Assembly: GCA_902605525.1 (NCBI GenBank)
Contig: CACLCV010000008.1
Span: 1 to 38,357, forward strand
DNA from: an uncultured Gammaproteobacteria bacterium
GTDB lineage: Bacteria; Pseudomonadota; Gammaproteobacteria; GCA-002705445; GCA-002716945
Length of the DNA: 38,357 bases
Reading direction: 5' to 3'
Positions 29,811 through 32,844 of the stretch are shown piece by piece (the stretch's first letter is position 1; every line of letters begins with the position of its first letter). Both the position numbers and the translations under genes were made by a program. A model generated the notes under the pieces. The model had not been told where the DNA came from. It did not search any database and saw only the letters and a program-made list of their open reading frames with translations.

Positions 29811-29832
29811 ATGAGAACTTAATGAGAACTTA
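29811..29832 (+). promoter_or_regulatory. Tandem-repeat LexA operator candidate GAAC-N7-GAAC
   Basis: Two perfect head-to-tail copies of ATGAGAACTTA (29811-29821 and 29822-29832) directly follow the -10 box and cover the expected start of transcription. They give GAAC at 29815-29818 and 29826-29829 spaced by 7 bases, which on the other strand is GTTC-N7-GTTC, the direct-repeat LexA box known in alphaproteobacteria. Position between -10 and lexA ATG fits autorepression. Confidence 0.6.
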
Positions 29833-30434
29833 TGAAAGAATATTCTACTTTAACAACCAAGGAACAAAAGACCTATGACTTCATCGTTAGGTATTCAAAA
29901 AAATTCGGAAAATATCCCTTATTAACAGAAATTGCAAAGGGTATAGGGATTACATCAAAAGGTGTAGCGCATAGATATGTAAAATCTTTAGAAAAAGCAG
30001 GTAAAATCTTAAGATTTTCAAATAAACATCGTGGTATTTCTACAATAGATAAAGGCCCTCTTTTTTTAAAATCTTTAGGAAAGATTGCAGCTGGTGGGCC
30101 TATTGAAGCAATAACTGATCAACAAAGAATTGAACTTGAATACTTGTTTACCAATAAAAAATCATACGCGCTCAAGGTAAAAGGAGAATCAATGATAGAT
30201 GCAGGTATAAATGATGGAGATTGGGTAATCATTGAAGAAAGTAAAAAATTCTATAAGTCAAAAGTACATGTAATTTTAATTGACAATCAAGATGTGACTT
30301 TAAAATATATAGAAAAGGCAAGCCCAGGAGAGATAAAATTAATTCCTGCAAACAAAACATATAAAGAAACAATTTACCCTGTTGAAAGAATTTCTATTCA
30401 AGGATATGTAGTTGGACAAGTAAGAATATACTAA
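29832..30434 (+). CDS. lexA: LexA repressor
   Basis: SOS repressor inactivated by RecA-stimulated self-cleavage. The 200 residues have an N-terminal winged helix (~1-70) and a C-terminal peptidase domain. The cleavage bond is Ala87-Gly88 in GKIAAGGPI, the nucleophile Ser120 in KGESMIDAGINDGDW, and the base Lys158 in VTLKYI. The recognition helix region (GITSKGVAHRYVKSLEKAG) is unlike E. coli LexA (FRSPNAAEEHLKALARKG), so a different operator is expected; a GAAC-N7-GAAC repeat overlies the promoter. ATG 29832 is the last base pair of that repeat. Coupled to dinB by TAATG. It could be a second LexA-like repressor if another is encoded elsewhere. Confidence 0.93.
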   Translation: MKEYSTLTTKEQKTYDFIVRYSKKFGKYPLLTEIAKGIGITSKGVAHRYVKSLEKAGKILRFSNKHRGISTIDKGPLFLKSLGKIAAGGPIEAITDQQRIELEYLFTNKKSYALKVKGESMIDAGINDGDWVIIEESKKFYKSKVHVILIDNQDVTLKYIEKASPGEIKLIPANKTYKETIYPVERISIQGYVVGQVRIY

Positions 30435-31651
30435 TGAGTGAAAAAATCTTTATTCACGTAGATATGAATGCATTTTTTGCCTCAATAGAACAAAGAGATT
30501 ATCCAAAACTTTTGGGAAAACCTGTAGCTGTAACTAATGGAGAGCATGGCTCATGTATTATTACTTCTTCATATGAAGCTAGAGCATTTGGCATAAAAAC
30601 AGGAATGAGGATTTCTGATGGAAGAAAAATTTGTCCTCGCTTAGTTCAAAGACCATCAAGACCAAAAGTATACGCAGAAACATCAACAAGAATAATGAAT
30701 ATACTGCATAATATAACTCCTGATATTCAAATATACTCAGTTGATGAAGCTTTTCTAGAATTAACAAATTGTATGAAAATTTATAAGGAAATTAATCATG
30801 TTATATACAAGATTAAAGATCTTATTTATGAATCAGAAAACCTTAAATGTTCGATTGGTATATCATTTAGTAAATCATTAGCAAAATATGCTTCAAAAAT
30901 TAATAAACCAGATGGAATAACTTATATTAATAAAAATAATTATCACGAATATCTAGATAATGCACCAATAGATACTTTGTGCGGGGTATCAACAGGAGTT
31001 AAAAGTTTTTTAAACCATCATGGTGTTCACAAATGTTCTGATATGAAGAAGTTACCTATAAGTATTCTTTCTAATAGGTTTGGTAATATTGGCAAAAAGA
31101 TATGGCTGATGGCAAATGGAAATGATTTTGAAGGACTCATTTCAGACTTAAATCATCCGAAAAGTCTTGGTCATGGAAAAGTATTAAAGCCTAATACAAA
31201 AAGTAGCTATTTAATAAAAAAAGTATTCCTAAGAATGTCAAATAAATTAGCATTACGTTTACGTAAATCTAATTATGAATCAAATATTTTCTTAATAGGT
31301 GTAAAAATAAAAGCAGGGTGGATACAAAAGAAAATCAAAATAGAGAAAGCTACGTGTAATCGAAATGATATATTTAATATTTGTTTATCTTATCTAAATC
31401 TGTTCGAAAAAAATACGGGCATTTATCAAGTTCAAGTTACAGCTTTAAACCCCTTAAAGAAGAATACGCAAATGGACATTTTCAGTGAAGATAATCATAA
31501 GAGTGAAGTTTTAGATCTAGCACTAGAGAACATATATGATAAGTTTGGCCCCGAGACTATTAAGCCCGCTCGCTTAATTAGTGACCATACAGATAGCCCA
31601 GACGTAATAGCCCCAGCATGGAGACCGAGTGGACATCGAAAATCGGTATAA
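30434..31651 (+). CDS. dinB: Y-family translesion DNA polymerase (DinB/Pol IV type)
   Basis: Error-prone polymerase that copies past DNA lesions. The 405 residues have catalytic Asp10 in IHVDMNAFFASIE and Asp104-Glu105 in YSVDEAFLEL, Phe15 as likely steric gate, SSYEARAFGIKTGM in the fingers, and SIGISFSKSLAKYASKINKPDGI in the palm. The little finger (~245-345) is followed by QMDIF (346-350), a good beta-clamp motif, then a ~55-residue tail ending APAWRPSGHRKSV that E. coli Pol IV lacks, so the clamp motif is internal. Being in an operon with lexA implies SOS control. Closed by a strong terminator. Confidence 0.92.
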   Translation: MSEKIFIHVDMNAFFASIEQRDYPKLLGKPVAVTNGEHGSCIITSSYEARAFGIKTGMRISDGRKICPRLVQRPSRPKVYAETSTRIMNILHNITPDIQIYSVDEAFLELTNCMKIYKEINHVIYKIKDLIYESENLKCSIGISFSKSLAKYASKINKPDGITYINKNNYHEYLDNAPIDTLCGVSTGVKSFLNHHGVHKCSDMKKLPISILSNRFGNIGKKIWLMANGNDFEGLISDLNHPKSLGHGKVLKPNTKSSYLIKKVFLRMSNKLALRLRKSNYESNIFLIGVKIKAGWIQKKIKIEKATCNRNDIFNICLSYLNLFEKNTGIYQVQVTALNPLKKNTQMDIFSEDNHKSEVLDLALENIYDKFGPETIKPARLISDHTDSPDVIAPAWRPSGHRKSV

Positions 31652-31683
31652 AAAAAGGCCGAGGGGGTAGATTCGGCCTTTCA
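31651..31683 (+). terminator. Intrinsic terminator of lexA-dinB
   Basis: GGCCGA (31657-31662) pairs perfectly with TCGGCC (31673-31678) around a 10-base loop; flanking A-run and TTTC extend the stem. It begins at the last base of the dinB stop. This is the clearest GC-rich terminator in the window. Confidence 0.8.
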
Positions 31684-31699
31684 TTAAAGGGGTGGGGAT

Positions 31700-31729
31700 A
31701 TGACATCTTGTCTGTATCCTGTCTATAAC
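31700..31729 (+). promoter_or_regulatory. Promoter of the MerR-type regulator with repeats in the spacer
   Basis: ATGACA (31700-31705) and TATAAC (31724-31729) are 18 bases apart, longer than the usual 17, a feature of MerR-controlled promoters. Two direct repeats of TGTCT (31709-31713 and 31720-31724), 11 bases apart, occupy the spacer and the first base of the -10. Expected transcription start is near 31736. Confidence 0.45.
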
Positions 31730-31745
31730 ATTACTCTAACAAAAT

Positions 31746-31822
31746 AGACATGTCAATAATAAATATGAACAAAAACTATACAAATATCAAAAATAATGAT
31801 ACTGTCTGAAAAATAATAGACA
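31746..31822 (+). promoter_or_regulatory. Further TGTCT/AGACA operator-like motifs in the regulator leader
   Basis: The palindrome GACATGTC (31747-31754, within TAGACATGTCA) and the dyad TGTCT-N10-AGACA (31803-31807 and 31818-31822) repeat the same core as in the promoter spacer. They lie between the promoter and the start of the regulator gene and are candidate sites for its own product. The remainder of 31684-31839 shows no ORF or RNA gene that I can recognise. Confidence 0.4.
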
Positions 31823-31839
31823 ATACTTTGACAAATGGT

Positions 31840-32844
31840 ATGGAAAATATAATAATTAGAAACAATGACAAGGATAAGTCCAACATTAGTTTGCAAATGA
31901 AAGAAGATTTAGCTGCTAAACCTAGACATTTAATTCAAGTTGTCAATAGACGGACGGGCTTAAGCTCTGATGTAATTAGAGTATGGGAAAAAAGGTACCA
32001 AGCAGTAATTTCTCATCGAAATGATACAAACAGAAGACTATATTCAGATAAAGATATAGATAAACTAACTCTCCTAAAAAGAGCAATAGCTGCAGGCAGG
32101 AGAATAGGTGATATAGCTGCACTGTCGTACGACGACCTCTTTGAACTCGTAATGGGAGATGAATCAACTGCATCCATAGGCTACAAAAGACCTAGCACAG
32201 GTACTATCATGGAATTGTTTGACGAGGCAGTTTCATGTATCAAAGAAATGAATAGTTGGAAACTAGATAATGTTTTATCAAATGCAGTAGCTATATTAAG
32301 CACAAATGATTTTTTAATTGAGTTCATTAAACCTTTAAGTAATTACATACAAGATGAGTGCTCAAGAGGGAGTATAAGATATTCACATGAAAAGATGTCG
32401 AAGCTTTGTATTAGAACATGTTTAAACAATCTTTATTTGAATCTTCGTTCATCAAAAGAGGATTGTCCTAGACTTGTTATAGCCTCATTGTTATCTGAGC
32501 ATGAGAGTCTAGACACTCTGATGCATATGATTGTTGCTCAAAACATTGGATGGGATCTTACTTATATTGGAAATGGCGTCCCACATGATGAAATAACTTT
32601 TGCAGCATCTAAGGTTAAAGCACAGGTAGTTGTATTAGCCATAAACAACCCAAGAGATATCGCTAGAAAAATTTATGAAATCAAACATATTAGAGATAAA
32701 GCTGATAAAACAGAGGATATAATTTTAATCGGCTCTCAATGTAGTGACTATAAACAGCTCAGTAATGAGTTTAACATCAATATATCAAATGATTTAACAA
32801 GTTTTAGGTTATCTTTGGAAAGGCTCTATAGCTTAATTCGATAA
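31840..32844 (+). CDS. MerR-type regulator with degenerate B12-binding-like domain
   Basis: The MerR DNA-binding domain (about residues 30-100) reads HLIQVVNRRTGLSSDVIRVW, EKRY, then NRRLYSDKDIDKLTLLKRA. A four-helix and Rossmann-like part (~125-334) resembles CarH/LitR cobalamin photoreceptors. The B12 signatures are eroded: the Trp of W-x9-EH is replaced by Cys, EH is EK, and the lower-ligand motif E-x-H-x-x-G reads SEHESL, keeping only the His. So cobalamin binding is doubtful; it may sense something else or act as apo-protein. ATG 31840 gives 334 residues; in-frame TTG 31828 adds four. No ribosome site supports either. No photolyase or carotenoid gene is nearby. The 3' end overlaps valS by 12 bases. 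Confidence 0.82.
   Translation: MENIIIRNNDKDKSNISLQMKEDLAAKPRHLIQVVNRRTGLSSDVIRVWEKRYQAVISHRNDTNRRLYSDKDIDKLTLLKRAIAAGRRIGDIAALSYDDLFELVMGDESTASIGYKRPSTGTIMELFDEAVSCIKEMNSWKLDNVLSNAVAILSTNDFLIEFIKPLSNYIQDECSRGSIRYSHEKMSKLCIRTCLNNLYLNLRSSKEDCPRLVIASLLSEHESLDTLMHMIVAQNIGWDLTYIGNGVPHDEITFAASKVKAQVVVLAINNPRDIARKIYEIKHIRDKADKTEDIILIGSQCSDYKQLSNEFNINISNDLTSFRLSLERLYSLIR

Follow-up and report, generated by a model that had tools for sequence, protein, structure and literature searches.

An operator-like cluster in front of a MerR-type gene

Why do five copies of one five-base word crowd together in front of a MerR-type regulator gene, and what do they control? A first-pass annotation of the window (the whole stretch of DNA analysed here, 38,357 nucleotides from an uncultured gammaproteobacterium) had reported five TGTCT/AGACA words at this locus, and all five are present within 114 bp: TGTCT at 31709, 31720 and 31803, and AGACA at 31746 and 31818. 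Across the whole window TGTCT is not enriched (78 copies seen, 78.0 expected). Shuffling reveals that the clustering itself exceeds chance: the intergenic region, put through 5000 dinucleotide shuffles, never reached five words (mean 0.49), and in 200 dinucleotide shuffles of the whole window the maximum for a stretch of equal length was four. A direct repeat of TGTCT with an 11-bp step (31709 and 31720) and a TGTCT-N10-AGACA dyad (31803–31822) are likewise there as described. The palindrome GACATGTC is present at 31747–31754 but proves to be restricted to this genus; 9 of the 23 species have its TAGACA half.

Aligning the intergenic region among relatives, a check that the annotation had itself proposed, revealed that the motifs are conserved in 23 species; this 23-species alignment underlies the counts of spacing and conservation given below. 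The cluster also has members that had gone unlisted, namely AACA at 31727 and 31738, TGAACA and TATACA at 31766 and 31777, and TTGACA at 31828. Direct repeats of the form TnnACA-N5-TnnACA occur just twice in the 38-kb window, at 31766 and 31817, both within the array. The cluster is a real, conserved feature that had been partly misread.

The regulator resembles CarH and has probably lost cobalamin binding

The gene downstream of the cluster, found in 24 of the 25 genomes of the family, is the following:

31897–32844, plus strand: CarH/LitR-like MerR regulator, 315 aa from ATG 31897

In this genus, the reading frame extends upstream to an ATG at 31840 that falls inside the core promoter. Of these two in-frame starts, ATG 31897 is the more likely.

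Comparison of the protein with Pfam gave a match to MerR_1 (2e-11) and none to a B12 domain, and comparison with the NCBIfam model of CarH gave 64 bits (1.5e-17), short of its equivalog cut-off of 400 bits. The best PDB relatives by sequence are CarH proteins, and the AlphaFold2 model (pLDDT 70, pTM 0.49) predicts a four-helix bundle and a Rossmann-like domain for which the best-matching solved structures are again CarH. A MerR domain close to that of CarH and the predicted bundle plus Rossmann-like fold both place the protein in the CarH/LitR superfamily.

The cobalamin ligands of CarH are a Trp and a His, a Glu-His pair and a lower axial His. In the regulator the Trp is replaced by Cys, the His by Ser/Lys and Glu-His by Glu-Lys, while the axial His aligns with Glu; the protein therefore departs from class I cobalamin-dependent CarH photoreceptors both in its ligands and in falling below the NCBIfam cut-off. 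Homologues form a ladder over the families, from those that keep B12 domains (L178, L183) through sub-threshold ones (L174, L176) to the unmatched proteins of our own group. Judged from its sequence, the regulator is probably of CarH/LitR type with cobalamin binding lost, and cobalamin is unlikely to be its signal.

Half-sites of CarH type are arrayed at constant spacing

CarH operators consist of TnnACA repeated every 11 bp and may include the -35 box (PMC9304148). The half-sites here agree with CarH in both the word and the step, so the annotation's remark that no operator of this form was known does not hold for a CarH/LitR-like gene. The array comprises:

31709–31741, no strand assigned: operator core (tetrad), with TGTC at 31709, TGTC at 31720, AACA at 31727 and AACA at 31738
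31751–31782, no strand assigned: half-sites TGTCA at 31751 (minus strand), and TGAACA at 31766 and TATACA at 31777 (plus strand, 11 bp apart)
31803–31833, no strand assigned: half-sites TGTCT at 31803 (minus strand), and TAGACA at 31817 and TTGACA at 31828 (plus strand, 11 bp apart), with constant spacing in 23 species

The core is a 33-bp TGTC-N7-TGTC-N3-RACA-N7-RACA, that is, two facing pairs. It matches this layout at 16 of 16 positions in the window, a score equalled by none of 400 shuffles, and at 14–16 of 16 in relatives; the layout recurs at alkB (below), and a tetrad scoring 16/16 also precedes the gene for a homologue (L179) that belongs to another family and retains the cobalamin ligands. 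The main half-sites lie 109, 102, 78, 61, 26 and 10 bp from TTGACA 31828 in all 23 species, distances that hold even where the intervening sequence varies freely, and half-sites on the same strand are near whole helical turns apart. TATACA 31777 is found mainly in this genus. Because spacing is constant at near-integer helical turns in 23 species, self-control by several subunits on one face of the DNA is likely, much as the annotation had proposed for several dimers; the binding is what we infer from this layout. A dimer of dimers like that of CarH would have four DNA-binding domains, which could together fill the tetrad. From these comparisons, the words appear to be putative CarH/LitR-type repressor sites in a new operator layout.

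Directly upstream (29832–31651) lies a gene pair for a LexA-like repressor and a DinB-type polymerase of the Y family; other genes replace the polymerase at three of the loci compared (L017, L019, L020). This neighbourhood raises the question of whether the sites belong to another factor, for instance the LexA encoded two genes upstream. We regard such ownership as very unlikely: the array accompanies the regulator gene even where dinB is not upstream, it recurs at alkB and matches CarH half-sites, and alkB is paired with the regulator in other families.

Two conserved promoters overlap the array

Two promoters are conserved in the control region:

31828–31856, plus strand: rightward promoter of the regulator gene, TTGACA-N17-AATAAT, whose -35 is the last half-site; 11/12 match
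31728–31756, minus strand: leftward promoter, TTGACA (31756–31751), N17 and TAATGT (31733–31728)

The rightward TTGACA is present in 23 of 23 species, and its -10 is conserved less. The leftward promoter has its -35 in 22 of 23 species and its N17 spacer and TANTGT in all 23. TANTGT agrees with TATAAT at only 3–4 of 6 positions, and the leftward promoter is absent from the list returned by a simple promoter scan. No half-site includes the invariant TA of this -10, which the operator alone is therefore insufficient to explain.

MerR activators act on long promoter spacers, and the first-pass annotation had accordingly placed the regulator's action at an 18-bp-spacer promoter at 31700–31729, which a MerR-type activator would untwist. 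The letters are indeed there, ATGACA (31700–31705) followed by an 18-bp gap and TATAAC (31724–31729), but just 7 of the 23 species keep TATAAC, and gap lengths of 17, 18 and 20 bp all occur. Moreover, a better promoter lies downstream, and the regulator's relatives are CarH-type repressors. With TTGACA-N17-AATAAT as the best rightward promoter, long-spacer activation in the manner of MerR is left without a basis; both conserved promoters have 17-bp spacers, as opposed to the 19–20 bp of classical MerR activators. We consider activation by untwisting highly improbable. The proposed 18-bp-spacer element is probably not a promoter, and its letters are better explained as the stem of an RNA hairpin together with the operator core.

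The leftward promoter probably drives a small RNA

The RNA in question, supported by its fold, z-scores, conservation, terminator direction and independence from dinB, has these parts:

31650–31721, minus strand: proposed small RNA, about 70 nt
31696–31719, minus strand: first hairpin, GGATA-CA-GACA-AGA-TGTC-A-TATCC, with a loop whose length varies among species
31679–31695, minus strand: unpaired C-rich stretch CCCACCCCUUUAAUGAA, in which ACCCCUUUA is invariant in the alignment
31650–31678, minus strand: terminator hairpin with a C-rich loop and a U7 tail

Its start would lie near 31721, as placed from the -10 box. Every species can form one and the same predicted fold: firstly, a 5' hairpin; secondly, an unpaired C-rich CUCCACCCCUUUA or CCCCACCCCUUUA; thirdly, a GC hairpin whose loop is C-rich and which precedes 7–9 U. 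Folding energies reach z-scores of -4.6 to -6.8 against shuffles; good folding is also seen for the opposite, plus strand (z -3.4). In all species the run of U/T after the hairpin measures 7–9 on the minus strand versus 2–3 on the plus strand. Where species differ by indels, these lie in the first hairpin's loop and not in its stem, and covariation is slight, with one pair altered on both sides. Comparison with Rfam found no family at its threshold. A short open reading frame starting at ATGACA after the GGGGTGG block was considered and rejected: its frame is unconserved, and three species have lost the ATG.

Fold, indels, terminator and conservation together indicate that the ATGACA/TGTCT pair at 31700–31713 is largely RNA stem. 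TGTCT 31709 is also an operator half-site, because its counterpart at alkB is kept without the hairpin.

Alternatively, the array could be the regulator's operator with no small RNA beside it; the hairpin would then terminate dinB, and the GGGGTGG block would be some other DNA element. The hairpin does directly follow dinB in most species, the slight covariation fits, and the promoter scan lists the terminator no more than it lists the leftward promoter. Yet the minus strand carries the T-run, the indels spare the stem, the leftward promoter is conserved and common to alkB, and the block is retained in L017, L019 and L020 although other genes replace dinB there. We therefore think a locus without an RNA unlikely, and favour an unannotated, previously undescribed small RNA that is probably transcribed leftward.

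By its sequence, the C-rich stretch of this RNA may complement ribosome-binding sites rich in purines. When seven start regions were checked quickly for duplexes with it, none was convincing. A literature search for small RNAs controlled by CarH/LitR proteins returned nothing relevant.

A second site lies in front of alkB

A sequence-only profile of the array was used to search for further sites, and the known site was recovered in each of 7 genomes. A second site was found by this profile in our own genome (C21:9163-9286, E 5e-5) and in G006 (6e-5), G017 (7e-4), G022 (0.002) and G014 (0.13, weak by itself); in G001 and G004 the profile found no second site. In our own genome, G006, G014 and G022, the second site lies upstream of a gene, unlinked to the regulator, for a monooxygenase of AlkB type. 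The protein matches solved alkane monooxygenases (4e-33) and keeps their histidine motifs. The alkB promoter is TTGACA-N17-TANTGT, with the tetrad core placed as it is at the leftward promoter.

In G017 (L153 / L194) alkB is gone from the locus and the operator remains, with one spacing extended by 10 bp, roughly a helical turn, and a decayed -35. A fatty-acid-hydroxylase-like gene adjoins alkB in several genomes (L192 4707-5489, L193 4902-5678; PF04116 was tested on the G017 copy).

Homologues of the regulator stand divergent to an AlkB-type gene in G208, G068, G063 and G203, which represent three other gammaproteobacterial families; of these, two were compared and share 61–63% identity with ours. 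Directly after the regulator homologue in G208, G068 and G063 (L174, L175, L176) comes fabA, a neighbour that hints at membrane lipids.

Simpler searches yielded no further targets. Scanning the genome for TGTCT-N6-TGTCT gave two other exact matches, both inside coding genes, and matches to RACA-N5-TTGACA were mostly coding; one recurrent match in front of an fpr-like gene is simply the divergent neighbour's start codon, and the array is absent there. In the photolyase region that we examined, the array was not seen. The genome also carries a five-gene operon (L083 3207-8286, contig C3) for what we take, from the translations, to be proteorhodopsin, phytoene desaturase, lycopene cyclase and a Blh-like dioxygenase, with a phytoene synthase that matches PF00494. 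The promoter of this proteorhodopsin-crt-blh-like operon lacks the array, so a link to light, which releases CarH from operators that it binds in the dark, is unsupported and the operon was set aside as a target.

A candidate regulon

We think it fairly likely that a cobalamin-independent repressor of CarH/LitR type controls itself, a small RNA and alkB. What the analysis shows directly is the sequence conservation, the geometry of the sites, the second site, the gene neighbourhoods and the predicted RNA fold; from these we infer binding and repression by the regulator, transcription of the RNA, the targets of that RNA and the signal. Regulator subunits would occupy TnnACA half-sites at 11-bp steps, filling the 33-bp tetrad and the in-phase half-sites up to the -35. 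Rightward, bound subunits would cover the -35 of the regulator's own promoter, leading to autorepression; leftward, the tetrad would cover the -10 and start of the promoter that makes the ~70-nt RNA ending near 31650; and alkB, an unlinked second target, would be governed by the same promoter-operator layout in front of it. Occlusion is the suggested mode of repression, since the sites cover the -35 at the regulator's own gene and the -10 and start at both the small RNA and alkB.

Since the regulator homologue and alkB are divergent neighbours in other families, the leftward promoter may have served alkB before it came to drive an RNA. More tentatively, we propose that in this marine order a promoter that once drove alkB divergently from a CarH-like repressor became the gene of a C-rich small RNA, such that a regulator without cobalamin sensing might command a membrane monooxygenase together with an RNA whose role may be to mask ribosome-binding sites. 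The regulator, the small RNA and alkB would form a candidate regulon for streamlined marine bacteria that carry proteorhodopsin and few of whose regulators are understood. CarH-type operators, in a layout of facing pairs, appear to have been retained beside a protein whose cobalamin site has decayed. If real, the RNA would be a conserved small RNA family of the order, possibly descended from an orphaned promoter.

Comparison with known systems

The proposed RNA resembles C-rich small RNAs in Rfam (the Betaproteobacteria toxic sRNA RF02278, FsrA and LhrC) in having an unpaired C-rich stretch before a terminator hairpin. Its scores against RF02278, 15.7 bits in the window and 21.6 bits in L010, are far under the gathering threshold of 50, and it is therefore not a member of those families.

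BldC of Streptomyces is likewise a MerR-like protein on several head-to-tail direct repeats, but it consists of the DNA-binding domain alone and its repeat has another sequence (PMC5859096). Class II LitR proteins of Pseudomonas (PplR/PmlR2) share more: they are gammaproteobacterial members of the CarH/LitR family without cobalamin binding, and their repressor sites overlap the -35 (PMC9758184). However, their site is TGTACA-N12-TGTACA, in contrast to the 11-bp-step tetrad here, and they keep the four-helix bundle only (PMC9758184), whereas a Rossmann-like domain is predicted for our regulator.

The closest systems are CarH of Thermus thermophilus and Bacillus megaterium and CarA/CarH of Myxococcus, with which the regulator shares a MerR domain and, as predicted here, the four-helix bundle and Rossmann-like domain (PMC9304148). 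Their operators also place TnnACA at 11-bp steps, one half-site containing the TTGACA -35 (PMC9304148). Compared with these systems (PMC9304148), our locus differs in three respects: the cobalamin ligands are lost; the half-sites form two facing pairs and are spread over about 125 bp; and the likely targets are the regulator's own gene, alkB and probably a small RNA, rather than, as far as tested, carotenoid genes.
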